Positions 29,760 through 42,544 of a stretch of DNA of 64,000 nt are shown piece by piece (position 1 is the first letter of the stretch; each line of letters opens with the position of its first letter). The notes beneath the pieces were generated by a model. That model worked only from the letters and a program-made list of their open reading frames with translations, ran no database searches and was not told the DNA's origin. The DNA comes from Collinsella phocaeensis. GTDB lineage: Bacteria > Actinomycetota > Coriobacteriia > Coriobacteriales > Coriobacteriaceae. The translations under genes were made by a program, and so were the position numbers. The stretch spans positions 1 to 64,000 of the forward strand of contig NZ_FQLR01000004.1 of the NCBI RefSeq assembly GCF_900119895.1, in the 5' to 3' direction.

Positions 29760-30308
29760 CTACGAATAAACCTCCGGCTTGAGCACGCCGACGTAGGGAA
29801 GATTGCGGTAGCGCTCGGCGTAGTCCAGGCCGTAGCCGACGACGAACGCATCCGGGCAGTGAGTGCCGACGTATTTGGGATTCACGGCAGCCTGCTTGCC
29901 CTCGACGTCCTTCCACAGGAAGGTGGCGACCTCCAGGGAGGCGGGCTTGCGGCTGGCAAGGTTCTTCATCAAGTACTTGAGCGTGAGGCCGGAATCGAGG
30001 ATGTCCTCGACGATCAGGACGTCGCGGCCCTTGATGTCGATGTCGAGGTCCTTGATGATGCGGACGATGCCCGAGGACTTGGCGCCGTCTCCATAGCTGG
30101 AAACGGCCATGAAGTCGATGGCGACCGGACAGTCGATGGCGCGCATGAGGTCGCCCATGAAGACGACGGCGCCGCGCAGCACCGCGATGAGAACCAGGTC
30201 GCGGCCGGCATAGTCGCGGGAGATCTCCTCACCCATACGCTTGACCATGGCGGCGATGTCCTCTTCGGAGAAGAGCACGGTTTCAACATCCGGATGCATT
30301 GCGTTCAT
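29760..30308 (-). CDS. hpt: Hypoxanthine(-guanine) phosphoribosyltransferase
   Basis: Purine salvage enzyme of 182 residues. PRPP loop VLIVEDILDSGLTLKYL with the paired acidic residues, LRGAVVFMGDL near residue 45, and the purine-contacting CPDAFVVGYGLDY are conserved. GAAAGG precedes ATG 30308. Sits between tilS and ftsH on one strand. Confidence 0.96.
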   Translation of the reverse strand: MNAMHPDVETVLFSEEDIAAMVKRMGEEISRDYAGRDLVLIAVLRGAVVFMGDLMRAIDCPVAIDFMAVSSYGDGAKSSGIVRIIKDLDIDIKGRDVLIVEDILDSGLTLKYLMKNLASRKPASLEVATFLWKDVEGKQAAVNPKYVGTHCPDAFVVGYGLDYAERYRNLPYVGVLKPEVYS

Positions 30309-30347
30309 GACTTGCCTTTCTTGACGTCCGGGCCGGTATGTGTGAGC

Positions 30348-31907
30348 TTACCCCATCGCCGCGTCCTCGGGGGCGCGATTCAAGGGACGAACAGCCAATT
30401 TTATCAGCAGCCGTGAAGCCGGCGTGCATTTGAAACGGTCGTCCAGCCGAATACCCGCAACCCACACAACGGCCCCTCCGGGCGCGGTGCGCACCACGGG
30501 AACCGACGGACGGTCCGCCACGGACACGTGGGCCTCGTTGAGAATATCCGAGAGCTTTTTCGTCCGGCCGCTCATCCCGAGCGGGCACATGATGTCGCCG
30601 GGGGCGGGGGCGTCCACCCACAAGCGCGCGGAGCGCACGTCGGCCGGGATCGTCGCGTCGGCGCCGCGCAAATGGGACGGATCGTGCACCGCATACCCTA
30701 ACGCCGCCGCATCGATGTACGCCACCGATCCGTCGGCGGCCCCCCGATCATCCAGGGCGAGCGCGACGGGGTTCGTCCCGGAGGGCACGCGCACGAGCTC
30801 GGAGACGAGCATCGCCTGATTCGCCAAGGGGATCGAGGCGGGAACCCCCAGCCATGCGGCGACCAGGCGCTCGCGCGCACATGGAGTTCGAAACGCAAGC
30901 GCGCCGAACTCCATGCGCGCGTCGACGCCGCCCGGAAGGCTCAACGAGCCGCTCCCCGAGGCGACGCAGGCGAGCACCTGCTCCACATGGCGCATCTCGA
31001 TGCGGGCATCGGGAGCGAGGCGCTTGTGGGCTAGGCGCACCATGCGGCGCGCAAGCGCCAGCTCGGCCGAAGCCAGGCGCGAGGCGTCGATGACCATGAG
31101 CCCCTCATCGGTCCTCAACGTGCAGGCCCGCAGGGCGCTGGCGGCGAGATGCGCCATGAACGCATCCTCCTCCCCAAGAATGTCGCAGGTCGATCCAATC
31201 GCCCGCTCCAGCTCCGGATTCCTTTCCCGGGCCTTCGGGACCACGCGGTGCCTCACGAAGTTGCGCAGGTAGGAGATATCGCCATTTGACTCATCCTCGC
31301 GCCAGGGAATACCGGCCACCTCCAGGTAGCGGCACAGGTCCTCATGCGTGCGCTCGATGAGGGGCCTCACAATGATGTTGCGGCGGCGGGGGATGCTCGA
31401 GAGCCCTGCCGGCCCCGACCCTCTGATCGCATTCATGAAGAACGTCTCCGTGCGATCCGAGGCCGTGTGCGCCGTGAGGATGCGCGCGGCCGACCGAGGC
31501 GTCCCCAGCTTCTCGGACAGCTCACGCACGTAGCGCCGCGCGGCGGCATAGCGAACCTCCCGAGCGGCCGCCTCGAGATTCGACCCCCCGAGATCGGAGA
31601 AATCCGCATGCTCGACGCAGAGCGGCAGGCCGAAACGATCGCACAGCTCGCGCACGTAGCGCTCGTCGCCGTCCGATGCGTCCCCGCGTAGATGGTGGTT
31701 TACATGCAGGACGTGCAGTCGCTCGCGGGCGACGCGGGCGGTGCCGCGGCCATCTCCGATATCAAGCCGAGACGTGCACGCCATGACGAGAAGCGCCGTC
31801 GAGTCCGCGCCTCCTGATACCATGAGCACCACGGGCGCCGCGGCGGGCGGGGCCCCCGCGGCCGCCCGCGCGGGTACCGTCCTGTAGTGCTGCGCAACCG
31901 TCGGCAT
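30348..31907 (-). CDS. tilS: tRNA(Ile)-lysidine synthase
   Basis: Converts C34 of the CAU-anticodon tRNA-Ile to lysidine so that it reads AUA. 519 residues. PP-loop SGGADS at 31-36, HVNHHLRGDASDGDERYV and AHTASDRTETFFMNAIRGSG are family signatures. The C-terminal third contains the TilS substrate-binding domain ending around MSGRTKKLSDILNEAHV. An Ala/Pro-rich N terminus precedes the PP-loop. Confidence 0.93.
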   Translation of the reverse strand: MPTVAQHYRTVPARAAAGAPPAAAPVVLMVSGGADSTALLVMACTSRLDIGDGRGTARVARERLHVLHVNHHLRGDASDGDERYVRELCDRFGLPLCVEHADFSDLGGSNLEAAAREVRYAAARRYVRELSEKLGTPRSAARILTAHTASDRTETFFMNAIRGSGPAGLSSIPRRRNIIVRPLIERTHEDLCRYLEVAGIPWREDESNGDISYLRNFVRHRVVPKARERNPELERAIGSTCDILGEEDAFMAHLAASALRACTLRTDEGLMVIDASRLASAELALARRMVRLAHKRLAPDARIEMRHVEQVLACVASGSGSLSLPGGVDARMEFGALAFRTPCARERLVAAWLGVPASIPLANQAMLVSELVRVPSGTNPVALALDDRGAADGSVAYIDAAALGYAVHDPSHLRGADATIPADVRSARLWVDAPAPGDIMCPLGMSGRTKKLSDILNEAHVSVADRPSVPVVRTAPGGAVVWVAGIRLDDRFKCTPASRLLIKLAVRPLNRAPEDAAMG

Positions 31908-31967
31908 ATCACATCTCCCGTCTTATCGTCCGCCCATATTGTATCTGCACGAAAGGTCGTACGCCGC

Positions 31968-32795
31968 ATGCCTTCTTCACGGGACAGACTGCATCTCTAC
32001 GTTCTCGCCAGCGGCTCAAAAGGCAACTGCTCCATCGTCGCGGGCCCCGGCGGCCTCGTCATGATCGATGACGGGCTTTCGCGTCGCGAGGTTCTTTCGC
32101 GGATGGAGGCCTGCGGGCTGCGACCGCACGACGTCCGGGCGCTGGTACTCACCCATGAGCACGGCGACCATACAGGGGGCATCGCCGTATGGCACCGAGC
32201 CTTCCCCGTCGAACTCTTCGCATCCGAGGGCTCGACCGAACTGCGGCGGGCCCTCCGCGAGCTCCCGTTCAATCACTTCGCCCCCGGAGAAACCCTCGAG
32301 CTCGCCGGGATGCGCGTCGACACCTTCTCGACTTCCCACGACATCGCAAATCCGGTCGGGTTTCGCTTCTCGTGCGACGGCGACGCCATAGGGTACGCCA
32401 CGGACACCGGGATCATGACAGCCGCGATGCGCAGCGGACTGCGTGGCGCGCGCATCATTGCGCTCGAGGCCAATCACGACGTCCCGATGCTTGCGTGCGG
32501 CCCGTACCCCCGCTATCTGCAGGACCGCATTCGCTCAGACCGCGGCCACCTCTCGAACGAGCAGGCGGCGAGCGCGGCCGCGGAAGTTGTTGGCGAACGC
32601 ACCGAGCACCTCATCGCCATGCATATCTCCCAAGAGAACAATAGGCCGAGCCTTGCTGTGCGCGCGATCGCGGGGACCCTCGGCGCCGAGCTCGATGACG
32701 AGTTGGGGTCGACGGCGACGCTCGAGCGCAGCGGCGGTCTCCCTTCTCTGCATATCCGTGCGGCCGGCCAAAACCGTCCGGTCGCCATCCTCTGA
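31968..32795 (+). CDS. Metallo-beta-lactamase fold hydrolase (YycJ/WalJ-like)
   Basis: 275-residue MBL-fold protein starting LASGSKGNCSIV, as in YycJ-type proteins. Metal ligands are in THEHGDHTGG (around residue 62-68), TSHD, ATDTG and AMHISQENN. Relatives are exonuclease-like or cell-wall-linked hydrolases near walRK; no such context here. ATG 31968 gives the family-typical N terminus. Encoded divergently from tilS. Confidence 0.85.
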   Translation: MPSSRDRLHLYVLASGSKGNCSIVAGPGGLVMIDDGLSRREVLSRMEACGLRPHDVRALVLTHEHGDHTGGIAVWHRAFPVELFASEGSTELRRALRELPFNHFAPGETLELAGMRVDTFSTSHDIANPVGFRFSCDGDAIGYATDTGIMTAAMRSGLRGARIIALEANHDVPMLACGPYPRYLQDRIRSDRGHLSNEQAASAAAEVVGERTEHLIAMHISQENNRPSLAVRAIAGTLGAELDDELGSTATLERSGGLPSLHIRAAGQNRPVAIL

Positions 32796-32796
32796 T

Positions 32797-32822
32797 CGAT
32801 CACGCGTCCTGACGCGCGATCG
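32797..32822 (+). terminator. Hairpin after the MBL gene
   Basis: CGATCACGCGT / ACGCGCGATCG with a single A-C mismatch and 4-nt loop, two nt past the stop. No T-run, so its role is uncertain. Confidence 0.4.
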
Positions 32823-32902
32823 GCCCAACGCCCCAATCTTCTCGTACCGCAGCACGGATCGCACGCGATCGCGCGCCGGCACCTATCTCGCGCCGGCGCG
32901 CC

Positions 32903-32941
32903 AAAAAAACGGGGCGGGCGCACACCGTGCACTCGCCCCGT
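32903..32941 (-). terminator. Rho-independent terminator of hsp20
   Basis: Minus-strand stem ACGGGGCG / CGCCCCGT followed by seven Ts, 36 nt past the hsp20 stop. Confidence 0.85.
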
Positions 32942-32976
32942 CCTTGCGTACCCCACCTTGGCGGCAACGCGTTCGA

Positions 32977-33411
32977 CTAGTCGATAGCGATCTTGGTCAC
33001 GTTCTTCTTCTCCACGATCTTGGGGACCGTGACCGTAAGGACGCCGTCCGCGTAGCGGGCGGACAGCCCCTCAGAAGAGGCGTCCTTCAGGTAGACGCCG
33101 CGCGTGGCGCTATAGGACGCGAACTCCTTCTGCAGGTAGTTCTTGCCCTGATCCTCCTCCTTCTCCTCAACGTTGACGGAGATGGAGAGGCGACCCTCAT
33201 TGAGCTCGACATCGATATCGTCCTTCGAGACGCCGGTGAGGTATGCCTTGACCTCGTAGGCATCCCCCTTGTCCTCGACGTCGATGGGGAACGCCTTGCT
33301 CGAAAGCGGCGCGGATGCGAAATCCATCATGTCGTCGAACGCGTCGAGAAGGGAAGCGGTGCTCGCCGGACGCAGACCGAACACCGAACGATACGGAACC
33401 ATGCTTGCCAT
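32977..33411 (-). CDS. Small heat shock protein, Hsp20/alpha-crystallin family
   Basis: 144-residue holdase chaperone. The alpha-crystallin domain runs from about residue 40 (FPIDVEDKGDAYEVKAYLTGV) through NEGRLSISVNVEEKEEDQ to the C-terminal ADGVLTVTVPKI motif. ATG 33411 is chosen because GGAG lies upstream and the protein begins as expected (MVPYRSVFG). A HAIR-like inverted repeat lies about 130 nt upstream, implying HspR-type control. Confidence 0.93.
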   Translation of the reverse strand: MASMVPYRSVFGLRPASTASLLDAFDDMMDFASAPLSSKAFPIDVEDKGDAYEVKAYLTGVSKDDIDVELNEGRLSISVNVEEKEEDQGKNYLQKEFASYSATRGVYLKDASSEGLSARYADGVLTVTVPKIVEKKNVTKIAID

Positions 33412-33738
33412 TACGACCACTCCTTTGATGTCGCGCCGCACCCGCACGAGCGGATGGGGCCTTCTCTTGACGCTTGGAGTTATTCCCGCTCCACCTTGAT
33501 TTAAACCATATGCCGAAGATTTTTTAAGCGTCACACCATCATCAAATCTAAGTCACTTCTACTTAAGTTTGAATGCGACCCGTCGGCGGTCGCGAGACGG
33601 CAAAAGCGAGACGATGCTCGACGAAGACGTAGCGACGACTCGGATGCATCCCGATTTTGTGTCGCAACCTATTAATCCGGTACGAATACCTCAACCCCCA
33701 TACAATGAGCTCGTGACATCACGATCCAAGGTGGCCCG
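33412..33738. other. Intergenic region between hsp20 and a small membrane protein gene
   Basis: 327 bases with no gene. More AT-rich than its surroundings at 33500-33570, where the heat-shock operator lies. TACAAT at 33701 could be the -10 of the plus-strand gene, without a clear -35. Confidence 0.55.
33544..33570. promoter_or_regulatory. HAIR-like heat-shock operator upstream of hsp20
   Basis: Inverted repeat TCTAAGT-N7-ACTTAAG at 33547-33567, flanked by AAA and TTT to make a 27-bp near-palindrome. The 7-7-7 layout equals the HspR-binding HAIR element (CTTGAGT-N7-ACTCAAG). The same 27-bp layout, with an identical left arm AAATCTAAGT, occurs before the clpB fragment at 38502-38528. Confidence 0.7.
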
Positions 33739-34092
33739 ATGAGCGAAGACAACGAATCCATTCGTTCCGCGCGAAGCGAAACGCACCGCAGCCAGGCGGG
33801 CGTGCGGCATGGCAGACACCTGGACATGGGAATCGCGTCGAGCGACCCCGACTACCTTGCAACAGGCGACGGCACGGCGAACCATCCGTTTCGGGGCAAC
33901 ACGCCAAGCGGAGCCAGAAGGCCGATGCCGGAGGGACGGCCCGACTTCGCTCACCTGCTCGAATCGCCGGCGCCCGGCAAGCCCATCTTCATCGCCCAGC
34001 GCAAGCGAAAGGCGCGGCGCGGGCGGATCGCAGCCATCGCCGTGATCGCGATAGCGGCCTTCATCCTCATCTGGTACGCCGTCACTCGCTGA
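33739..34092 (+). CDS. Hypothetical protein with a C-terminal TM anchor
   Basis: 117 residues: a polar, Arg/Asp/Gly-rich N-terminal 90 residues with no recognisable fold, then a basic stretch (RKRKARRGR) and one TM helix (IAAIAVIAIAAFILIWYAV) at the extreme C terminus. It would be tail-anchored with the N terminus inside. AAGGTGG precedes the ATG. It is the last gene before the left end of the split insertion element. Confidence 0.65.
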   Translation: MSEDNESIRSARSETHRSQAGVRHGRHLDMGIASSDPDYLATGDGTANHPFRGNTPSGARRPMPEGRPDFAHLLESPAPGKPIFIAQRKRKARRGRIAAIAVIAIAAFILIWYAVTR

Positions 34093-34236
34093 CACGGACC
34101 GCGCCACCCAATCGATCCAACAGACGATATGAGTTGAACATTGGGACCCCTCCTCTTGTAGCTCTATCGTGGGTCGGGCGACAATGGTCGTAGCGCCAAC
34201 CGTGGCCGCGCGCCACATGCGACGGAGAGGGGCTCC

Positions 34237-34500
34237 ATGTCCAATTATGTCACAGCCATCGGTCTCGACGTCCACGCCAGGAGCATCAAGGCCTGCGCCC
34301 TGAACCCCATGACCGGGGAGGTCGAGCGCGCGTCGTTCGGCTACGACCCGGCCTCGGTCGCCGAGTGGGCGCTCTCCTTCGAGTCGCCCAAGGCGGTCTA
34401 CGAGTCCGGCGCGACCGGCTTCCACCTCTGCCGCGTCCTGCGCGCCCTCGGCCCCGACTGCGCGGTGGGCGCCGTCTCCAAGATGCAGCGCCCCGCCGCC
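34237..34500 (+). pseudogene. IS110-family transposase, N-terminal fragment
   Basis: First 88 residues of a DEDD transposase: AIGLDVHARSIKACAL holds the first catalytic Asp, followed by YESGATGFHLCRVL and VSKMQRPAA, after which intact relatives continue into an R/K-rich segment with the next acidic residue. Here the similarity stops at about 34500 and the frame runs into unrelated sequence, ending at 34596. GAGAGG precedes the ATG. The rest of the gene lies at 38731-39090. Confidence 0.8.
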
Positions 34501-34528
34501 GGGGCCCTGGCTGGCTACCCCCTACCTG

Positions 34529-34681
34529 ATGACTCCCTCGCAGGTCGCCGCTTTCACCCAGACGACCCCCGCGGGCGTGAGAAAACTCCTCTCTAGCGGA
34601 AGGCTCAAGGGGAGCAGGATGGGATCCCGGTGGGTCATACCTAAGTTCTGCCTCCTGCGCTACCTGAACGGGGCCGGCTAG
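34529..34681 (+). CDS. Excisionase-like small HTH protein
   Basis: 50 residues read as MTPSQVAAFTQTTPAGVRKL followed by LLSSGRLKGSRMGSRWVIPK. This is the winged-helix pattern of Xis/MerR-type DNA-binding modules: TP-x-x-VA, a recognition helix, then GRLKG...W.IP. It directly follows the transposase break point in another frame, and may be the 3' part of a larger gene because the frame is open a little upstream. Probably a relic of an integrative element. Confidence 0.5.
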   Translation: MTPSQVAAFTQTTPAGVRKLLSSGRLKGSRMGSRWVIPKFCLLRYLNGAG

Positions 34682-34720
34682 GCCGGGGGGGCGAGAGGGG
34701 CTTGCCGTGGAGAGGCTGAG

Positions 34721-34999
34721 ATGCGACAAACCGTACGACGTCGACGAGGCGCGGGCGAGGAAGGGTCTCCCTCGGAGGAAGAGGAAGAACCCGAGGTCGA
34801 CCTGCTCGAACTCGTGATTCGCATCCCCGAGGAGTGCCAGAGCGCGCTCGGGAGGAAGAAGGTCACGAGGACGGTCTACGCCGTCAACAAGCGCGAGGAC
34901 CTCAAGGGCCAGATCAGAGATTTCAAGGGGAATGAGCCCCGCGCCGCCGCTGGTGCGTACATAGATATGCAGTCGTCTGCCGCTATAGTACCGATTTGA
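34721..34999 (+). CDS. Hypothetical protein, possible integrase arm-domain fragment
   Basis: 92 residues. An acidic Glu-rich stretch (SEEEEEPEVD) precedes IRIPEECQSALGRKKVTRTVYAV and LKGQIRDFKG, which recalls the arm-type DNA-binding domain of tyrosine integrases. The last 20 residues look unrelated and no catalytic domain follows. Position after an Xis-like gene supports an integrase relic, but the identification is weak. Confidence 0.3.
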   Translation: MRQTVRRRRGAGEEGSPSEEEEEPEVDLLELVIRIPEECQSALGRKKVTRTVYAVNKREDLKGQIRDFKGNEPRAAAGAYIDMQSSAAIVPI

Positions 35000-35038
35000 G
35001 CAAACAAAACGCTCTCATCAATCTCAAGGAGGATTCAT

Positions 35039-35455
35039 TTGTTTGGCATCGTCGCAGAAATCATCAACCGTCGTTTCAGCGATTGCCGCGTGCTTAATTG
35101 GATCGTGCTGCTAAGCTTTCTGCTAAACGTTTCCGTATTCCTTGGATACAAGTGGATGCTGCCGTATTTTCTGACATTATCTGTCCCGAGCGGCACCGAC
35201 TGCGCGTCGCTTGCTGAATATACATCCATTGCCCTCGCGCCGATCTTCCTCGTCGACCTTGCAAGCTGGATGCGCTTCGTCTGCTCGTGGAAGAAGAGTT
35301 CCGGGAAAAGCGACGGCGAGCTGATGGCGGCCGTTTCGGCCTCGACCCTCATGAGATGGTCGAGCGGCTCCCTTGGATACGTCGTCGGCCAGATTGCCTC
35401 GGCACTGCTCCTTTCGGCCAATCTGTTCGAAGACGCTTGCTCGGAGCTCGCCTAA
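35039..35455 (+). CDS. Orphan membrane protein
   Basis: 138 residues with about three hydrophobic segments: NWIVLLSFLLNVSVFLGY, SIALAPIFLVDLASWM and LGYVVGQIASALLLSANLF. No family recognised. The start is TTG at 35039, fixed by a strong AAGGAGG six nt upstream. GC is lower at its 5' end than in the core genes. Lies inside the split insertion element, directly before an IS3 tail. Confidence 0.55.
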   Translation: MFGIVAEIINRRFSDCRVLNWIVLLSFLLNVSVFLGYKWMLPYFLTLSVPSGTDCASLAEYTSIALAPIFLVDLASWMRFVCSWKKSSGKSDGELMAAVSASTLMRWSSGSLGYVVGQIASALLLSANLFEDACSELA

Positions 35456-35550
35456 GCCTTTGCCACTGGAACCACGTGAGGCGCCAGAGGAGGCTGAAGG
35501 GCCTGACCCCGGTTGAGTTCCGGGAGCAGGCCCTTCGGGAGGCCGCCTAG
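35456..35550 (+). pseudogene. IS3-family transposase, C-terminal remnant
   Basis: About 28 codons ending in RRLKGLTPVEFREQALREAA and a stop. This matches the extreme C terminus of IS3/IS150-type OrfB (WN-x-x-RRQ-x-x-LKGLTPVE[FY]R). Everything upstream of it is missing. Confidence 0.65.
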
Positions 35551-35618
35551 TGGTTATGATTTAGCGCGTCCAAGTTTTGGGGTGCAGTTCATTATCGGGG
35601 CGGCTTCTTTTTGTCGAA

Positions 35619-35654
35619 AACCACCACAAAGGTGCCTGCCCCTTTGTGGTGGTT
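35619..35654. repeat. Palindromic repeat, copy 3 (terminator-like)
   Basis: Perfect 14-bp stem AACCACCACAAAGG / CCTTTGTGGTGGTT with an 8-nt loop. Core on the minus strand is GGGGCAGGCACC. It starts 8 nt after the oleate hydratase stop and is followed by TTTTCG on that strand, so it probably acts as its terminator. Confidence 0.8.
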
Positions 35655-35662
35655 CTTGTGTG

Positions 35663-37534
35663 CTAGATTGCGCCGTACTCCTTGAGGAGTTTGGCGATGT
35701 CGGTTCCCTCGACCTTCTTGAGCACTTCTTTGAGAGCAATCCGCTCAACCATAGGCAGCTTCATGCTGGTGATGGGCTCACCGTCGCGTAGTTTAACGCT
35801 GCTCATAAGGAGGTCACGCACGTCAAAGACCGAACCCCAGACTTCGGGTACGCCGCGGTCGACATCGCAGAGCGTGTAGACGGCTTCCATGCCGGTGCGC
35901 ATGGAGTACTCAGTCGTAAAGATCGTGTCACGCGGCGTCTCGGCAAACTGGCCCAGGAACGCGAAGTTCACGGCGCCATCGGGCACCACGTCGGGGCGGT
36001 CGCCTGCTTCACGCGGCATAAAGAAGGCGGTGATGTAGGGCATCATGACGGGCACGGTGTTGGCGTGATTTGCCGCCAGCTCAGCAATCTTATCCTCGGG
36101 AACGCCCAGGTGATACAGCCATTCCTGGCAAATCTCCTCGCCGGTGCAGTCGCGCATGGTCTTCTTAACGTAGTCGCCGGGCTTGTCGGTAAACAGGCCA
36201 TACACCCACACGCAAAGCTGGTCTTTGGGCTGATCGCGGAACTGCTGTTGGCGGTTGATCGTCCAGCTCATAAGCCAGCCCGAATCCTTGCAGGTCACAA
36301 TGCCACCGGTCACGACGTGCCCGGTAAAGGGATCGCGATGGCAGATCCTTTGGATATAGGGCACAATCTCGCCGTCGAGCGTGGTGACCGTGGCGCTCAT
36401 CCAGTTGCTCTTCTCGGGGTCACCGCAGAATTTATCGGGATGACCAAAGCTCGGATCTTGCGCTGCGATACGACGCCACATGTCCCAACCGCCACCGGGG
36501 CGAATCGTCGGATCCCATGCGGCGGGCTTATCCTGCGCGCCGATCGTCGAGTTTTCCACACAGCCGCCGTTGGTGATAAAGACCAGGTCATCCTCAGTGA
36601 GGTCGATGTTCGAAATCTCGCCTGCATGCGTCACGGTGATGCGACGCGCGACCTTCTTGGTGCTCGTACTGTAGGGGTTGCGCGCAAAGGCGGCCTGCTG
36701 GATGCGCTGAATCGTGTCCTGGCCGGTGCCAGTGACGGCGCGGCGCGGACCCTCGCCGCCGCCAACCTCAAACACCACGTTTTCGACCTTGGTGTCAAAG
36801 TGGAACTGCACGCCGTGCGCCTCGAGATAGCGCTGCATGGGCAGAATCATCGACTCGTACTGGTTGTAGCGGGTGAAGCGCAGGGCGCTAAAGTCGGGCA
36901 GTCCCGCGATGTGGTGGATGTAGCGGCGGATATAGAGCTTCATCTCGAGCGCCGAGTGCCAGTTCTCAAAGGCGAACATGGTGCGCCAGTACATCCAGAA
37001 ATTCGAGTTGAGCACCTCGTCGTCAAAGAAATCGGTGATCGGACGGTTCGCCAGTTCCTCGTCGGGCGTAAAGAACAGGTCCATGATCTCGGTCGCCGCC
37101 TTGTCCGACAGGCCGAACTTGCCATCGGTGCCGCCGTCTTGGCCACGGTTCTTAGTCGAGCGGCACAGCGAGTAGTTGGGATCCTCCTTATTGAGCCAGT
37201 AGTACTCGTCGAGCACGGAGATGTCCGGATCTTCAATCGAGGGAATGGAGCGGAAAAGATCCCACATGACCTCAAAGTGGTTGTCCATCTCGCGGCCGCC
37301 GCGCATGACATAGCCCACGCCGGGGATGTCGGCACCATCGCAGGCGCCGCCCGCAACGGGGTCCTTTTCGAGGATATGGATGTGGCTTCCGGGCATTTGC
37401 GCGTCGCGCACCAGATAGCAGGCTGCGGTAAGCGCGCCCAGGCCGGTGCCGATGATGTAGGCGCTCTTGTGGTCGATGCCCGCAGGCTTCTTGGGACGAG
37501 CAAAGGCTTCGTAGTTTCCGCTTGAATAGTACAT
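35663..37534 (-). CDS. ohyA: Oleate hydratase (myosin-cross-reactive antigen family)
   Basis: FAD-dependent fatty-acid double-bond hydratase, 623 residues, converting oleic acid to 10-hydroxystearic acid at the membrane surface; in gut bacteria linked to detoxifying host and dietary unsaturated fatty acids. FAD-binding AYIIGTGLGALTAACYL is at about 25-41, with GGREMDNHFEVMWDLF and the substrate-pocket region RFTRYNQYESMILPM as in the family. A strong AAGGAGG precedes the ATG. It lies downstream of a TetR regulator with palindromes in the spacer. GC is somewhat lower than in the flanking core genes. Confidence 0.95.
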   Translation of the reverse strand: MYYSSGNYEAFARPKKPAGIDHKSAYIIGTGLGALTAACYLVRDAQMPGSHIHILEKDPVAGGACDGADIPGVGYVMRGGREMDNHFEVMWDLFRSIPSIEDPDISVLDEYYWLNKEDPNYSLCRSTKNRGQDGGTDGKFGLSDKAATEIMDLFFTPDEELANRPITDFFDDEVLNSNFWMYWRTMFAFENWHSALEMKLYIRRYIHHIAGLPDFSALRFTRYNQYESMILPMQRYLEAHGVQFHFDTKVENVVFEVGGGEGPRRAVTGTGQDTIQRIQQAAFARNPYSTSTKKVARRITVTHAGEISNIDLTEDDLVFITNGGCVENSTIGAQDKPAAWDPTIRPGGGWDMWRRIAAQDPSFGHPDKFCGDPEKSNWMSATVTTLDGEIVPYIQRICHRDPFTGHVVTGGIVTCKDSGWLMSWTINRQQQFRDQPKDQLCVWVYGLFTDKPGDYVKKTMRDCTGEEICQEWLYHLGVPEDKIAELAANHANTVPVMMPYITAFFMPREAGDRPDVVPDGAVNFAFLGQFAETPRDTIFTTEYSMRTGMEAVYTLCDVDRGVPEVWGSVFDVRDLLMSSVKLRDGEPITSMKLPMVERIALKEVLKKVEGTDIAKLLKEYGAI

Positions 37535-37548
37535 GGCTCCTCCTTGCC

Positions 37549-37561
37549 AACGAAGTTCGTT
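37549..37561. promoter_or_regulatory. Palindrome next to the ohyA ribosome site
   Basis: AACGAA-G-TTCGTT, perfect, 3 nt upstream of the ohyA AAGGAGG. Candidate operator or translation-control element. Confidence 0.45.
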
Positions 37562-37597
37562 AACAAGCTTTTGCCCTGATCAGCGCGGCCTAACCGA

Positions 37598-37617
37598 TAC
37601 AAGATCGTCACCTTGTA
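37598..37617. promoter_or_regulatory. Candidate TetR operator upstream of ohyA
   Basis: TACAAG-N8-CTTGTA inverted repeat in the ohyA leader. A related palindrome TTGTACAA lies at 37642-37649, sharing the TGTA/TACA core. Both are in the spacer between the TetR gene and ohyA. Confidence 0.5.
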
Positions 37618-37674
37618 CGATTTTTAATCAACGGGGGCGGATTGTACAAATCTGCTTGGCTTTGGTCTCCCAAG

Positions 37675-37695
37675 GTCACGCCGGCCCGGCGTGAC
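37675..37695. repeat. Strong palindrome between tetR and ohyA
   Basis: GTCACGCCGG-C-CCGGCGTGAC, perfect 10-bp arms around one base, extended outside by CCAAG/CTTGG. It lies 34 nt after the regulator stop. No T-run follows, so it could be a binding site, mRNA 3' stabiliser or weak terminator. Confidence 0.6.
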
Positions 37696-37729
37696 GCACT
37701 TGGCCGCTTTGCGCTCCAACGTGTAATAG

Positions 37730-38281
37730 TCAAAATCTCGCCAGCGCTGCGTCAATCTGGCCTTCGCATATTTTGGAAACGCGCTCGGCTACTGCGCTCG
37801 GGTCCTCGGCCATGCCTGCGGCAATCCAGTCGAGCATTACACCGATAAATGCATGTGCGAAAAAGCGGGACAGAAAGACCTTGTCGCTTTGTGAGACGCT
37901 CTTGCCTGCGGCGTGCTCTTCGACCACGCCTTCGATCAGGTCGAATGTCACGGGCTGCAGAAAACGCTGGATGCGCTCGGCGCTCACACAGTGATAGACG
38001 TTCATGATAAAGGGCTTGTTGTCGCGCACCGCGAGCATGATGTTTTCCAGGCCCACCTGCCAGGTATCGGCCGTCTTGTTGTTGGCGAGCGCGCGGCCGG
38101 CGTCTTCCTCACATGCCCATTCAACCAGGTCGTAGATGTCCTGAAAGTGATAGTAGAACGTCATGCGGCTGACCCCACAGTCCTCAGTGAGGTCCGCGAT
38201 GGTGATCTTAGTCAGTGGCTTTTGAAGCAGTAGTCGCTTAAGAGAATCTTCCAACGCGCGCTTTGTCAGTTGTCCAGCCAT
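37730..38281 (-). CDS. TetR/AcrR-family transcriptional regulator
   Basis: 183 residues. The N-terminal HTH reads KITIADLTEDCGVSRMTFYYHFQDIYDLVEW (about 24-54); the C-terminal ligand domain resembles the DhaS/TetR_C_8 type. Its position upstream of ohyA on the same strand, with palindromes between, suggests it senses fatty acids and represses ohyA. It is inside the split insertion element. No activator partner is seen. Confidence 0.88.
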   Translation of the reverse strand: MAGQLTKRALEDSLKRLLLQKPLTKITIADLTEDCGVSRMTFYYHFQDIYDLVEWACEEDAGRALANNKTADTWQVGLENIMLAVRDNKPFIMNVYHCVSAERIQRFLQPVTFDLIEGVVEEHAAGKSVSQSDKVFLSRFFAHAFIGVMLDWIAAGMAEDPSAVAERVSKICEGQIDAALARF

Positions 38282-38345
38282 TGCTCTCCCGCCATCGAAG
38301 TTGAATCATGAAATATTCCCATGGTACCCCGCATGCAATCACCAT

Positions 38346-38372
38346 CCACGAAGGGAACAGACACCTTTGTGG
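38346..38372. repeat. Palindromic repeat, copy 4
   Basis: CCACGAAGG / CCTTTGTGG arms (one mismatch) around the core GGGAACAGACACC. Arm sequence matches copy 3. Confidence 0.6.
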
Positions 38373-38501
38373 CGGCTCGATTCGTCTCAATCTGTAACAT
38401 CTAGAGCCAGAAACAGCCGCTAGATGTTACGGCTTGAGATAGTAAGGGGACGAGGCCGTAGCGGGTGAGCGTGCCTGCTCCCTATCTCTCAACCACTCAG
38501 A

Positions 38502-38528
38502 AAATCTTATATATGGAGACTTAGATTT
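38502..38528. promoter_or_regulatory. HAIR-like heat-shock operator upstream of clpB fragment
   Basis: 27-bp inverted repeat with AAATCT / AGATTT ends. Read on the minus strand it begins AAATCTAAGT, identical to the first 10 bases of the hsp20 operator, with the same total length and 7-7-7 spacing. About 90 nt upstream of the clpB ATG. Confidence 0.65.
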
Positions 38529-38617
38529 GTGTATAAGATCGTACAAAGCTTGCAATAATACTTCTCGAACAACGTGAAGCCGCGCCGTAGGGCGGCCGCC
38601 CCAAGAGAGGTGATTCC

Positions 38618-38730
38618 ATGAGAATCGATAAGCTAGCAATGACGTCGCGCGAGGCGCTGCAGACCGCCATGATCACGGCTGCCGACGCGCAGGCCGGCGC
38701 GGTAGAGCCGATTCACCTGCTATCCGCCCC
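38618..38730 (+). pseudogene. clpB: clpB, N-terminal fragment
   Basis: About 37 codons reading MRIDKLAMTSREALQTAM then ADAQAGAVEPIHLLSA, the start of the ClpB N-terminal domain of actinobacterial disaggregases. Similarity ends at about 38729, where the IS110 C-terminal fragment begins in another frame. AGAGAGGTGA ribosome site and an upstream HAIR-like operator are intact, so the promoter region of clpB has been preserved without its gene. A complete clpB elsewhere is expected but not visible here. Confidence 0.7.
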
Positions 38731-39090
38731 GCCCGGTTCCCGAGCGCGCCGTCGTTCGCCTCGCGGTGCGGGCTCGCGCCCTCGGAGCACTCGAGCGGCG
38801 AGACCTCGTCGAGGGGCGGGATAACCCGCGCGGGCAACGCCCACGTGCGCCGCGCGCTCGTCGAGTCCGCCTGGCACGTCCCGATGTCCTCGCACGACCC
38901 GAAGCCCCTCGCGCCCGGCCAGGAGGTCGCGCCCGCGGTGCGGCGCCACGCGACGAAGTGCAACCGCAGGCTGATCGAGCGCAGGGAGGCCATGGCCGCC
39001 GCCGGCAAGAGGCCGTGCGTGGCCAACTGCGCCACGGCGCGGGAGATGGCGTGCTGGGTGTGGGCGATAGCGCGGATGGCGACCTCGTAG
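38731..39090 (+). pseudogene. IS110-family transposase, C-terminal fragment
   Basis: About 119 codons: RFPSAPSFASRCGLAPSE, then GGITRAGNAHVRRALVESAW and the end VWAIARMATS. This is the IS116/IS110/IS902 C-terminal domain, with the Ser-containing SSGE region typical of the family. No start codon; it follows the clpB fragment directly. Same strand as the N-terminal fragment 4.2 kb upstream. Confidence 0.8.
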
Positions 39091-39397
39091 CGCGGGCGCC
39101 CCGGACAACAGGGTCCGACCCCGGCGCGCGCCGCGCTCGAGGCCGTTGGGAGGCCACTCGAGTTCTTTTTTTGGGCGGCGGGGACACCGCCACGCCCGCC
39201 AACAGACTCCGATTTCGCCGCGAGGCCCCCAGCCGTAGCAACGAAATGCGCAGCCGAGAAGGCCACGCGCGGATATTAGAATGCCGAACGTGCGTCGAGA
39301 AGACACGCCCTCAAACGGCGCGGTCGCCGGGTGAAGATAGGTAGGCCCGGCCGTGCGCGGTAGCTCCGCGGACGGCCGGGCCGGTTTTGCCTCTTGA
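39091..39397 (+). other. Right non-coding end of the IS110-like element
   Basis: Non-coding stretch of about 307 nt between the transposase stop and the right inverted repeat. It contains a strong hairpin GGCCCGGCCGT (39344-39354) / ACGGCCGGGCC (39372-39382) with inner GCGG/CCGC, followed by GGTTTTG. In IS1111-type elements the guide (bridge) RNA is encoded in this position; no RNA boundaries can be set from sequence alone. Confidence 0.45.
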
Positions 39398-39418
39398 CAA
39401 TGTTCAACTCATATTAGA

Positions 39419-39454
39419 AAAAAGCGGCTCCGCCCCCTAACGGGACGGAGCCGC
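39419..39454 (-). terminator. Rho-independent terminator of the phosphoglucomutase gene
   Basis: GCGGCTCCG / CGGAGCCGC stem with extra GGG/CCC pairing, followed on the minus strand by six Ts. It directly abuts the right inverted repeat of the IS110-like element. Confidence 0.85.
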
Positions 39455-39481
39455 CTCACTTCGCGATGGCGTCGCAGCAGG

Positions 39482-41176
39482 CTACGAGAGCAGCTCGCGG
39501 CCGGACGCCTCGATAGCGTCGAGCAGCGCGTCTGCGGCCGCCGCGTCCTCGCCCTTGGCGAAGACATACAGCTTGATCTTGGGCTCGGTGCCGGACGGGC
39601 GCACGATGGCCTTGTTGCCGCCCTCGAGGTCGAACTCGACGACGTCGGCCTTGGGCAGGCCGTTCACGCAGGTGGCGTAGTCGACCACGGCCTCGACCTT
39701 CGCGCCCGCGATCTCGGTCGGTGCGTTCTCGCGCAGGCCCGCCATGATGCCGGCCATCTTGGCGGCGCCGTCGGCGCCGGGATAGCTCAGCGAGATGGTG
39801 CGGTTGTGATAGTAGCCGTACCTCTCGTACAGCTCGCGCATGGCCTGGACCAGGTTCTTGCCCTGCAGCTTGTAGCACTGGGCCATCTGGCAGATGAGCA
39901 GCGATGCGTTGACGGCGTCCTTGTCGCGCACGTGGTCGCCGGACAGGTAGCCGTAGCTCTCCTCGAAGCCGAAGATGTAGCGATCCGCCTCGCCGGCGTC
40001 GGACAGGCCGGTGATGATGTCGCCGATGTACTTGAAGCCGGTGAGGCAGCGACGCAGCTCGAAGCCGTACTCCTCGGCCAGGGCGTCGACCATGGCGGAG
40101 GAGACGATGGTGGTGACGGCGACCTTGCTGGAGAGGTCCTCGCCGCGCTCGGCGCGCATCTTGCAGATGTAGTCGAGCAGCAGCACGCCCATCTCGTTGC
40201 CGGTGAGCAGCGTGTAGTCGTCGCCGTCGGCGCAGGCGACGCCCACGCGGTCGGCGTCGGGGTCGGTCGCCAGGAGCAGGTCGGGATGGACCTCGTCGCA
40301 CAGCTCGATGCCCTTCTGCATGGCCTCGCGGATCTCGGGGTTGGGGTACGGGCAGGTGGGGAAGTCGCCGTCCGGGTCGCGCTGCTCGGGGACCACGGTC
40401 ACGTCGGTGATGCCGGCGCGGGCGAGCACGGTGGTCACCGGGATGAGGCCGGTGCCGTTGAGCGGCGTGTAGACGAGCTTGAGCGGAGCGCCCGCGATCT
40501 GCTCGTCGGTGAGGTTGTTAACGGACTGGGCGAGGACGGCGTCGTAGTAGGCGTCGAGCACCTCGTCGTCGATCCATTTGACCAGGCCCTGCTCCACGGC
40601 CTCGTCGAAGTCCATGGTCTTGACGTCGGCAAACGGGTCGGTGGCCTCCATGGCAGCCGAGATGGCCGCGGCCGCCTCGGACGTGATCTGGCAGCCGTCA
40701 GGACCGTAGGCCTTGTAGCCGTTGTAGGGCGCGGGGTTGTGGCTCGCGGTCATGCAGATACCGCCGGAGCACTTGAGATAGCGCGTGGCCCAGGACAGCG
40801 TGGGCACGGGGGAGATCTTCGGATACACGTAGGAGGTCACACCGTTGGCAGCGAGAATCGCGGCGGTGGTCTTCACGAAGAGCTCGCCCTTGTTGCGGCT
40901 ATCGCGCGCGATCGCCACCGTGGGGTTCTCGAAATTCTTCACCAGGTAATCGGCGAAACCCTGCGTAGCGCGGCCGACCGTATAGATATTCATGCGGTTG
41001 GTGCCGGCGCCGATCGTACCGCGCAGGCCAGCGGTGCCGAATGCGAGGTCCTGGAAGAACGCATCGGTGATCGCGCCCTCGTCGCCGGACTCCTTCATGC
41101 TCTTAAGCTCTTGCAGCAGCTCCTCGTCGGTGACGTGGGCGATCCACGCATCGAGCAGCTCGTGTACATCAACCAT
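39482..41176 (-). CDS. Phospho-sugar mutase (phosphoglucomutase, PgcA-like)
   Basis: 564-residue alpha-D-phosphohexomutase of the long Firmicutes/actinobacterial type, probably glucose 1-phosphate/6-phosphate interconversion. FGTAGLRGTIGAGTNRMN near residue 48, phosphoserine loop CMTASHNPAPYNGYK, DPDADR metal loop, GFEESYGYL sugar loop and RPSGTEPKIKLY phosphate loop are all intact. ATG 41176 is chosen because GAAAGGG lies upstream and the first residues (VDVHELLDAW) are family-like. Confidence 0.93.
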   Translation of the reverse strand: MVDVHELLDAWIAHVTDEELLQELKSMKESGDEGAITDAFFQDLAFGTAGLRGTIGAGTNRMNIYTVGRATQGFADYLVKNFENPTVAIARDSRNKGELFVKTTAAILAANGVTSYVYPKISPVPTLSWATRYLKCSGGICMTASHNPAPYNGYKAYGPDGCQITSEAAAAISAAMEATDPFADVKTMDFDEAVEQGLVKWIDDEVLDAYYDAVLAQSVNNLTDEQIAGAPLKLVYTPLNGTGLIPVTTVLARAGITDVTVVPEQRDPDGDFPTCPYPNPEIREAMQKGIELCDEVHPDLLLATDPDADRVGVACADGDDYTLLTGNEMGVLLLDYICKMRAERGEDLSSKVAVTTIVSSAMVDALAEEYGFELRRCLTGFKYIGDIITGLSDAGEADRYIFGFEESYGYLSGDHVRDKDAVNASLLICQMAQCYKLQGKNLVQAMRELYERYGYYHNRTISLSYPGADGAAKMAGIMAGLRENAPTEIAGAKVEAVVDYATCVNGLPKADVVEFDLEGGNKAIVRPSGTEPKIKLYVFAKGEDAAAADALLDAIEASGRELLS

Positions 41177-41484
41177 CGAACGTACCCTTTCAGACCATCG
41201 GACTCCCGGCATGCGGGAGGGGCGTAAAACACGCACCCACCGTTACTATACGCCATCTTGATAAAGCGTCCCTCCACGTTGCGGCAAGCGCGCCGTTGCG
41301 TATGCGGACGGCCGGGCCCCACGAGCTCCTCTATTCGAAAACGCCTCGATTGGGAATAGACGCTTTCTTGAGACCGTGCGAAGTCATCGTTGGGGGAGTG
41401 CACCCCCCTCGACACGCCGGACCTCAATGTGGGGACTGTTCCCGAATTGAGGTCCGGCGGGGTTCGATCCCGTGCAGCGGTAAC
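41177..41484. other. Intergenic region between phosphoglucomutase and tRNA-Ala
   Basis: 308 bases without a gene; contains palindromic repeat copy 5. Confidence 0.6.
41415..41459. repeat. Palindromic repeat, copy 5
   Basis: Perfect 14-bp arms CGCCGGACCTCAAT / ATTGAGGTCCGGCG around a 17-nt centre. Core on the minus strand is GGGAACAGTCCCC. Inner arm CCTCAAT is shared with copy 2. Confidence 0.8.
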
Positions 41485-41490
41485 AAAAAA

Positions 41491-41511
41491 GCCGGGGCAC
41501 GCGGCCCCGGC
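41491..41511 (-). terminator. Rho-independent terminator of the tRNA genes
   Basis: GCCGGGGC / GCCCCGGC with a 5-nt loop, followed on the minus strand by six Ts; 12 nt past tRNA-Ala. Confidence 0.85.
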
Positions 41512-41523
41512 TCGTACATTCTA

Positions 41524-41599
41524 TGGTGGAGGTTAGGGGGATCGAACCCCTGACCTCAGGCTTGCAAAGCCCGCGCTCTCCCAGCTGAGCTAAACCCCC
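41524..41599 (-). tRNA. tRNA-Ala (TGC)
   Basis: 76 nt including an encoded CCA. Cloverleaf is complete: acceptor GGGGGTT/AACCTCC with the G3-U70 wobble pair that identifies alanine tRNAs, D loop AGCTGGGA, anticodon loop CTTTGCAAG, T loop GTTCGATC. Confidence 0.97.
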
Positions 41600-41605
41600 A
41601 AGAGT

Positions 41606-41650
41606 AATAAACACCCCAGCGGCGACTCGGCTCTCGCTGGGGTGTTTATT
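41606..41650 (-). terminator. Long hairpin between the two tRNA genes
   Basis: Perfect 16-bp stem AATAAACACCCCAGCG / CGCTGGGGTGTTTATT with a 13-nt loop, 13 nt past tRNA-Ile and 6 nt before tRNA-Ala. Could partly terminate or direct processing of the tRNA precursor. Confidence 0.6.
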
Positions 41651-41663
41651 GCGAAAGAAAAGG

Positions 41664-41740
41664 TGGTGGACCTGACAAGATTCGAACTTGTGACCTCCCG
41701 GTTATCAGCCGGACGCTCTAACCAACTGAGCTACAGGTCC
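41664..41740 (-). tRNA. tRNA-Ile (GAT)
   Basis: 77 nt with encoded CCA. Acceptor GGACCTG/CAGGTCC, anticodon loop CTGATAAC with GAT, T arm CAAGTTCGAATCTTG. Upstream of tRNA-Ala on the same strand. This pair is often found in rRNA spacers, but no rRNA is here. Confidence 0.97.
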
Positions 41741-41754
41741 TTCGCACTTGACCT

Positions 41755-41783
41755 ATAGTACAGGAGCCCTATCGCGTATGCAA
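41755..41783 (-). promoter_or_regulatory. Promoter of the tRNA-Ile/tRNA-Ala unit
   Basis: Minus strand -35 TTGCAT (41778-41783), exactly 17 nt, -10 TACTAT (41755-41760), ending 14 nt before the tRNA-Ile 5' end. Confidence 0.65.
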
Positions 41784-41978
41784 CAAGATTTTCCAATTAT
41801 TTTGAAAATGATTCGCGCATGCCGACACGCGCTCCCGACCTGCGCTTTTGCAGCCCATCGTCGAACGAACCCCTAAGCGAGTGGACAGAATGCATGTATC
41901 TTCCCTTCGCTCGACAAGAATTGGGTACCATGTCCGATACCCAATCGCGGCGAACGAACCAGACCAGGAGGTGCCATC

Positions 41979-42476
41979 ATGATTCGCGTTGACGTTGAGA
42001 CCATTCTCATGGCGGGCGGGCCGATGCCCTCCGTCGTCGTCCTGCGCGAGAGGCAGGCGAGTGAATCCGACGAGGCGCCGTCGCGCTCCCTCTCCATTCA
42101 GACCGGCGCATTCGAGGCGGCGGCCATCGGGCGCGGCATCGACGTGGGCCGCTCGGAGCGTCCCCTCACCCACGACATCATGCTCGACGCCATCGACGCG
42201 CTCGACGCCAGGGTCGAGCGCGTCGAGATCACGCGGGTCGACGCCCCGGTCTTCTATGCATCGGTCGTGATCTCCGGCAGCGGTGCGGAGCACCAGCTGG
42301 ATGCGCGGCCGAGCGATGCCATCGCCCTCGCCGTGCGCTCAAACGCCCCCATCTACGTCGAGGACGACGTCATGAACCGTGCGGGCACGGCCAGTTCGGC
42401 GGATGCGGAGGACGGCGAAGGGGAGCTCGAGCGCTTCGACCGCTTCGTCCAGACGCTCTCCCCCGACGACTTCTAA
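41979..42476 (+). CDS. Bifunctional nuclease family protein (DUF151)
   Basis: 165 residues. The family core GAFEAAAIGRGIDVG...RPLTHDIMLDAIDAL...FYASVVIS and DARPSDAIALAVRSNAPIYVEDDVM matches the bifunctional (RNase/DNase) nuclease family, whose biochemical role in bacteria is poorly defined. An acidic C-terminal tail (SADAEDGEGELERFD) follows the domain. AGGAGG-like site precedes the ATG. Plus strand, single gene. Confidence 0.88.
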   Translation: MIRVDVETILMAGGPMPSVVVLRERQASESDEAPSRSLSIQTGAFEAAAIGRGIDVGRSERPLTHDIMLDAIDALDARVERVEITRVDAPVFYASVVISGSGAEHQLDARPSDAIALAVRSNAPIYVEDDVMNRAGTASSADAEDGEGELERFDRFVQTLSPDDF

Positions 42477-42544
42477 CGCATAGCCGCCATCATCGCCCGC
42501 GGCCCGGCATGATGCGCCCTCCTCGCGGCGGGGCGCCCGGCGAG

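Follow-up and report, generated by a model that had tools for sequence, protein, structure and literature searches.

Results

An oleate hydratase gene within a split insertion sequence

The DNA analyzed here, referred to as the window, is the stretch of 64,000 nucleotides from position 1 to 64,000 on the forward strand of contig NZ_FQLR01000004.1 of Collinsella phocaeensis (assembly GCF_900119895.1). It holds a unit of ∼5.3 kb between element ends, in which two halves of a transposase gene of the IS110 family of insertion sequences (IS) enclose an oleate hydratase gene, ohyA, and a tetR-type regulator gene. A sequence-only reading of the window had described a perfect 17 bp inverted repeat around two transposase halves of the same orientation, with the middle of the gene replaced by ∼4.2 kb containing ohyA, a TetR regulator, and an Xis-like gene. 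Each part of this description proved accurate; both halves lie on the + strand, the domains were confirmed, and the replacement spans 34502-38734. The same reading proposed that the intact ends make the region a mobile cargo unit and named a deletion between two IS copies as the plainer alternative, and both proposals are weighed in the Discussion. The shell of the unit consists of the features below, which were compared with an intact copy from another genus (genome G049) and with 19 other two-ended copies.

34121-34126, + strand: left terminal extension CAGACG, 6 bp of the expected 6-7 (same in the intact G049 copy; (G/A)AGACG in 19/19 other two-ended copies)
34127-34143, + strand: left subterminal inverted repeat, 17 bp (repeat search; shared with other copies)
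34237-34500, + strand: 5′ part of the transposase gene, 88 codons, open (left-half DNA 88.2% identical to the intact G049 element)
38737-39090, + strand: 3′ part of the transposase gene with its stop codon, 117 codons, open (Pfam match; alignment to the G049 element)
39091-39397, + strand: non-coding region, candidate guide RNA (seekRNA/bridge RNA) (alignment with eight other copies; predicted stems)
39398-39414, + strand: right subterminal inverted repeat, 17 bp (repeat search; shared with other copies)
39415-39417, + strand: right terminal extension TAG, 3 bp (TAA or TAG in 19/19 other two-ended copies)

The inverted repeat is exact (17 of 17 positions). With up to three mismatches allowed, it occurs at only two places in the 64 kb, which is beyond the expectation from 100 shuffles of the window (mean 0.04, none with two). 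The repeat belongs to an element of the IS1111 type, a group within the IS110 family, in which it has a subterminal position. In the accessible portions of two reports (PMC11187229, PMC11208160), the IS1111 group is characterized by subterminal inverted repeats, asymmetric extensions, a long downstream non-coding region, and a specific target; the same portions of the former put the sequence outside the repeats at 7 (or 6) and 3 bp and place an RNA-coding region downstream of the transposase gene. The window element likewise shows the first four traits. Its repeats fall within the 7-17 bp of the group, its extensions (CAGACG and TAG) agree with the 7 or 6 bp on the left and 3 bp on the right, and the distance from the start of the left repeat to the start codon is 110 bp versus 307 bp from the stop codon to the right repeat, the longer non-coding region thus lying downstream of the transposase gene. 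The outer limit of the extensions was inferred from conservation in kind among copies at different sites, and, since CAGACG is also present in the intact G049 element, these bases are most likely part of the element.

The 19 other two-ended copies are from C. phocaeensis itself (12 copies), G021 (one copy), and G038 (six copies). All 19 end in the 17 bp repeat, with (G/A)AGACG before the left repeat and TA(A/G)AA after the right one, and in many of them the right flank runs into a G+C-rich hairpin, as judged by eye. The repeats of the window element match those of these copies, and its ends are intact, as had been claimed. The 12 resident copies carry identical 17 bp repeats at a repeat-to-repeat length of 1527 or 1528 bp, and 11 of them retain a complete 367-codon transposase frame; the exception, L238, loses the frame in the final third. 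When nine copies of equal length were compared with the reference copy L230, leaving out the two 1528 bp copies, eight differed at 2-3 positions and one at 95. As a separate observation, the resident copies (G000:C1, C2, and C3; L227-L238) look like a recent expansion of one subtype, with an A-tract on each right flank. Copies of variable length in G038 (L241-L246) were considered as further natural cargo carriers and rejected, as all six of the fetched interiors (6/6) are runs of N.

Both transposase halves belong to one lineage

The right half (38737-39087) matches the Pfam family Transposase_20 (1.3e-13), and the protein from the left half alone gives a marginal match to DEDD_Tnp_IS110 (E = 0.097). 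A search with the right half among 65 genomes of the family (E ≤ 1e-60) returned nine genomes with a match. The check for an intact copy advised by the sequence-only reading was answered by the G049 element, whose uninterrupted 368-residue transposase matches both IS110 Pfam domains. The window halves are collinear with this element at 88.2% (left) and 86-87% (right) DNA identity. By comparison, ∼487 bp of the transposase gene are absent from the window (aligned-stretch positions 395 to 882), with 34502-38734 in their place. A complete DEDD transposase is therefore absent (residues ∼89-251 are missing), and the window element is a defective derivative that, with its transposase gene split, is unable to make its own transposase. 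It thereby departs from the IS1111 group: the middle 487 bp of the transposase gene have given way to 4.23 kb of unrelated DNA that includes a metabolic gene.

Identity to the resident copies is ∼90% for the left half and 79% for the right coding half (86.7% and 78.7% when only coding DNA is compared). Different lineages for the two halves were considered on this basis and rejected, given control pairs of the same IS family and the near-equal match of the halves to G049. Left/right identities in the control pairs were 88.2/84.3, 81.2/67.3, and 96.5/80.8, and the right parts usually diverge more, with few exceptions such as pairs with L125; pairs with L238 were excluded, as their right side is misaligned and L238 is out of frame. 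In addition, the window and G049 elements have the CAGACG extension and protein signatures in common, and, in the right non-coding region, an 8-nt insertion is among the signatures that both share with G010. These alignments place the two transposase halves in a single IS lineage, and the first circumstance that the sequence-only reading had named as refuting its proposal, halves of clearly different IS110 lineages, did not materialize. The unit is not a composite transposon with two complete IS copies around its cargo; it has two complementary fragments of one IS.

The element lies at a single ancestral site

The genes and features that flank the unit are as follows.

33739-34092, + strand: outer left neighbor, an open reading frame (ORF) of 117 amino acids (weak homolog between hsp20 and pgm in two relatives)
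39418-39457, no strand assigned: A-tract and hairpin, probable pgm terminator and insertion target (read from the sequence)
39482-41236, − strand: ORF which we take to be pgm (ORF list)

The right flank of the element reads TAGAAAAAAG followed by the hairpin after pgm, with an A-tract like that at the other copies. The element is thus at the foot of a terminator, which is the usual target kind of these IS copies. The order in the window is hsp20, the 117-amino acid ORF, the IS unit, and pgm. Of the 23 pgm loci examined elsewhere in the genus, in which hsp20 was sought in the 1.5 kb flank beside pgm, two (G040 and G013) have hsp20, a weak homolog of the 117-amino acid ORF, and pgm in the same order and without the IS. 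The homologs share 33-36% protein identity with the window ORF (E = 1.7e-7 and 2.7e-6), and a weak match to the ORF is present at 4/23 loci, the two with hsp20 and two more; no hsp20 match was found in the flanks of the other 21/23. The gene order shared with G040 and G013 indicates that the outer flanks of the unit once adjoined in a single ancestral intergenic site, so the search for an empty site succeeded, albeit through weak ORF similarity. No trace of the IS repeat was found at these two empty-site loci. Together with its presence at the ends of all 19 other copies, this disposes of the concern that the repeat is ordinary flanking DNA.

The insert is a mosaic with a foreign ohyA segment

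Between the transposase halves, the following features were assigned.

34504-34936, + strand: relic of an xis-int module, comprising xis (34529-34681) and a tyrosine recombinase gene of which the N-terminal part is left (74% DNA identity to G050 locus L274)
35039-35455, + strand: ORF of 138 amino acids, function unassigned (no Pfam or PHROGs match)
35462-35591, + strand: right terminus of an IS3-family element, including the final transposase codons (94% identity to G000:C1:287988-288117; Pfam rve_2 in an overlapping frame)
35592-38737, no strand assigned: segment from a Collinsella stercoris-like donor (98.8% and 98.0% identity, in two pieces, to C. stercoris L020)
35663-37534, − strand: ohyA, oleate hydratase, 623 amino acids, intact (NCBIfam equivalog)
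37730-38281, − strand: tetR-type regulator, 183 amino acids (Pfam TetR_N and TetR_C_8)
38618-38737, + strand: 5′ end of clpB, cut after ∼40 codons (C. stercoris clpB at the same place)

The insert is a 4.23 kb mosaic of at least three identifiable sources. The ohyA product scores 928.3 bits against the NCBIfam oleate hydratase equivalog, above the cutoff of 567, and the DhaS match of the tetR product is below its NCBIfam cutoff. Oleate hydratases add water to unsaturated fatty acids. Relative to C. stercoris, ohyA has 15 synonymous and six nonsynonymous differences, a ratio of nonsynonymous to synonymous rates (dN/dS) of 0.11, and tetR has one synonymous and four nonsynonymous differences, which are too few to interpret. 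The ohyA gene is likely functional and regulated, and it is probably the useful passenger.

The genus set comprises 43 genomes with that of C. phocaeensis included, and ohyA was found in two of them, the second being C. stercoris (NZ_CP085935.1, L020/L021). There the order is dnaK, grpE, dnaJ, an hspR-like gene, ohyA, tetR, and clpB, the chaperone and regulator names being our presumption from the protein sequences. The ∼3.1 kb segment with ohyA, tetR, and the clpB start is 98-99% identical and in the same order at both loci. The C. stercoris locus differs in that clpB is whole (858 amino acids) and in that no match to the IS1111 halves or the IS3 end was found in its 18 kb stretch L020. Outside the insert, longer matches of C. 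stercoris to 30001-42500 have 64-87% identity, and 96% is reached over 219 bp at transfer RNA (tRNA) genes. Sequence comparison thus marks the ohyA segment as foreign. An origin by rearrangement of the resident clpB locus was considered and rejected, as that clpB is whole (C1:294283-296835) and is 84% identical to the window fragment over 114 bp. Further ohyA relatives, at 79-84% protein identity, are from other Coriobacteriia and bifidobacteria (best 80 of 565 matches), and part of tetR was matched at each of seven such loci compared, which are from Coriobacteriia or filed as such.

Upstream of this segment, 34504-34902 is 74% identical in DNA to the G050 locus L274, which has a whole recombinase gene. 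The Xis-like gene of the window matches Pfam HTH_17, and an xis query matched 5/65 family genomes, that of C. phocaeensis included. The ORF at 35039-35455 was searched against Pfam and PHROGs and gave no match; the family name IS3 for 35462-35591 is inferred. The inner joins are abrupt, with ∼3 bp or less in common (GGT at the clpB/IS join, and at most a couple of bases at the IS/xis join), and they look non-homologous.

Three side observations were made in and around the insert. Related repeats at 35628-35642 and 38354-38368 (of the AAAGGTGCCTGYCCC type, the second with two mismatches) bracket ohyA-tetR, and the first of them also adjoins ohyA in C. stercoris (L020). The window relic has a complete counterpart at the L274 locus (G050:C17), where both xis and the tyrosine recombinase gene of a related module are whole. 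Genes for tRNA-Ala(TGC) and tRNA-Ile(GAT) are adjacent at 41524-41740, and an Rfam scan of the window at gathering scores found no ribosomal RNA.

A candidate guide RNA downstream of the transposase gene

The non-coding region of the window element is alignable with eight other copies along its length, apart from small gaps. Folding of the alignment with RNAalifold predicted 88 pairs; nine of these are altered at both positions in one sequence or more, and others are broken in some sequences. Covariation contributes little to the energy (−1.46 of −124.48 kcal/mol). In the 22 elements listed, a loop with a C/T tract shows complementarity of 5-9 nt to the A-tract target. The best match of the loop is the element's own site for G049 (9 nt) and G010 (8 nt), and for G021 the window guide ties. 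In random 16-mers, a match of at least 7 nt is expected at 0.2-0.8% and one of 5 nt at 8-14%. Our working hypothesis is that the C/T-tract loop could act as a guide.

Viewed across individual elements, the C/T-tract loops are TCCCTTTT in G010, CCTTTTTTA in G049, and TCTTTTTT in G021, each of which is complementary to the right flank of the same element. At the right ends of L240, L252, and L239, the loop seems to covary with the A-tract target, as expected of a guide.

Search for movement and vehicles

No second copy of the unit was found in the C. phocaeensis genome or among the 43 genomes of the genus, and C. stercoris, the sole other ohyA genome of the genus, has no match to either IS half. 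The expectation that ohyA-tetR would recur with these ends at other loci was therefore disappointed; in C. stercoris, ohyA lies beside clpB. The two inner-junction patterns had 0 matches in viral contigs. A phage vehicle was considered and rejected, as the 16 phage records matched do so over the ohyA-tetR and pgm parts only. A plasmid vehicle was also rejected, as among 60 plasmid records matched, 18 of the 20 listed have an oleate hydratase annotation under the match. The DNA of the xis-int relic had no match in phages, and its 92-amino acid ORF had none in plasmids. The 17 bp repeat itself is present in nine viral contigs, whose compared stretches have no transposase or insert match; three of them share just 19-24 bp around the repeat. 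In the titles and abstracts of the open-licence literature searched, no natural IS1111-type cassette and no ohyA in such an element was found.

Discussion

We regard the unit as probably an accidental mosaic: one IS insertion that was gutted and then filled by horizontal transfer and illegitimate recombination. In a Collinsella chromosome, a single IS1111-type element would have entered the terminator that lies between pgm and the small ORF. About 487 bp of the transposase middle would later have been lost, with 4.23 kb of mixed foreign DNA in their place, made up of the xis-int relic of an integrative element, the unassigned ORF, the IS3-family end, and the C. stercoris-like ohyA-tetR-clpB start. 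This DNA would have accumulated by illegitimate recombination and other insertions; as a patchwork of at least three sources with abrupt joins, the insert looks accidental. The end state would be a dormant shell, in principle mobilizable in trans, rather than a proven cargo transposon. The single lineage, the single site, the foreign ohyA segment, and the intact ends are direct results, whereas the order of events, a benefit from ohyA, and an ability to move belong to interpretation.

Several observations weigh against this account. A DNA match to the left flank (33700-34126) was found in the C. phocaeensis genome only, 1/43 of the genus, so the empty site rests on the gene order around pgm and on weak ORF similarity. 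The split carries no date, as the reading frames of both transposase fragments remain open. Since the compared genomes include no conspecific strain free of the insert, the sequence of events is deduced rather than observed. The IS subtype of the window is present only once in its genome, so the IS may be of outside origin, possibly with its cargo. Lastly, the match of the window loop to its own site is 7 nt, which is not distinctive.

The alternative closest to the sequence-only proposal is that the 5.3 kb unit is a natural mobile insertion cassette (MIC) built elsewhere, transposed whole into the pgm terminator with the transposase of an intact IS1111 relative acting in trans, and still mobile. 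The ends, extensions, and non-coding region are intact, the site is of the usual target kind, and the IS subtype and the cargo are each single in the genome. A helper is conceivable, as had been suggested, given the 12 resident copies with identical repeats and 11 complete transposase frames. In the accessible part of one report, an engineered ISEc11 whose center was replaced by catA1 moved when the transposase and the non-coding RNA were supplied in trans (PMC11187229). With ends and non-coding region kept and intact related copies present, movement of the window unit in trans would be possible. However, no second copy was found among the 43 genomes, the other ohyA genome has no IS-half match, the two junction patterns occur in 0 viral contigs, and the insert is a patchwork of relics. 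Moreover, where the 19 other copies have (C/T)(A/G)AGACG, the window element has ACAGACG (left extension plus the preceding base), a departure at two positions, and in the same accessible part, movement ceased when the target flanks next to the donor were changed (PMC11187229). We therefore consider a mobile cassette unlikely. Of the original cargo proposal, the intact ends, the single lineage, and the foreign cargo stand, and a sign of movement was not found.

In another alternative, two IS copies of the same lineage and orientation surrounded foreign DNA, and the left lost its 3′ part while the right lost its 5′ part. The shared orientation and complementary truncation of the halves fit this scheme, as does their unequal identity to the resident subtype (∼90% versus 79%; coding DNA 86.7% versus 78.7%). 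That inequality, however, is within the range of the control pairs and all but vanishes against G049, the outer flanks are one ancestral site, and two insertions plus two separate truncations are required. As the halves are of one lineage and the flanks of one site, a deletion between two IS copies, once put forward as the plainer alternative, is less likely than one refilled copy, and we judge it improbable. An assembly error that joined IS fragments to unrelated DNA is scarcely credible: repeats confuse assemblies and the variable G038 copies are runs of N, but no N occurs in the window or at the 12 sister loci, the contig is 1.59 Mb, and the genome contains no second example of either window half within its subtype.

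MIC231 of Bacillus cereus, listed among the references of PMC6542083, is reportedly an example of an MIC. The term and concept are found in the portions available of two reports (PMC3129680, PMC3281130), and by that description the window unit is alike in having IS ends around passenger genes and no working transposase gene. It differs in its IS1111-type ends, candidate guide RNA, and retained transposase fragments, and in being a single copy known from sequence. An MIC is supported by occurrence of the unit at more than one site; here there is one copy in the C. phocaeensis genome and none elsewhere among the 43. We did not find an MIC with IS1111-type ends described in the open-licence literature searched. 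Engineered mini-ISEc11 (carrying catA1 or mCherry), as far as the accessible text describes it (PMC11187229), likewise has IS1111-type ends around cargo, a replaced transposase center, and a need for transposase in trans. The window unit, in contrast, is natural, larger, and mosaic, with its non-coding region in place.

If the unit is immobile, it is an ordinary example of an IS that served as a landing ground for foreign DNA. In either case, it documents that an enzyme for fatty-acid hydration was recently transferred between species of Collinsella. It is doubtful, though conceivable, that a natural IS1111 (seekRNA/bridge-RNA) cassette carries ohyA and its regulator between gut Coriobacteria with the transposase, and possibly the guide RNA, provided by resident copies. 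RNA-guided IS110/IS1111 recombinases are under development as programmable DNA-insertion tools. Cargo transport has been demonstrated with engineered constructs, according to the accessible part of the report (PMC11187229), and the window shell, with its intact ends, candidate guide region, and metabolic gene, may serve as a test case for natural cargo carriage by such elements.

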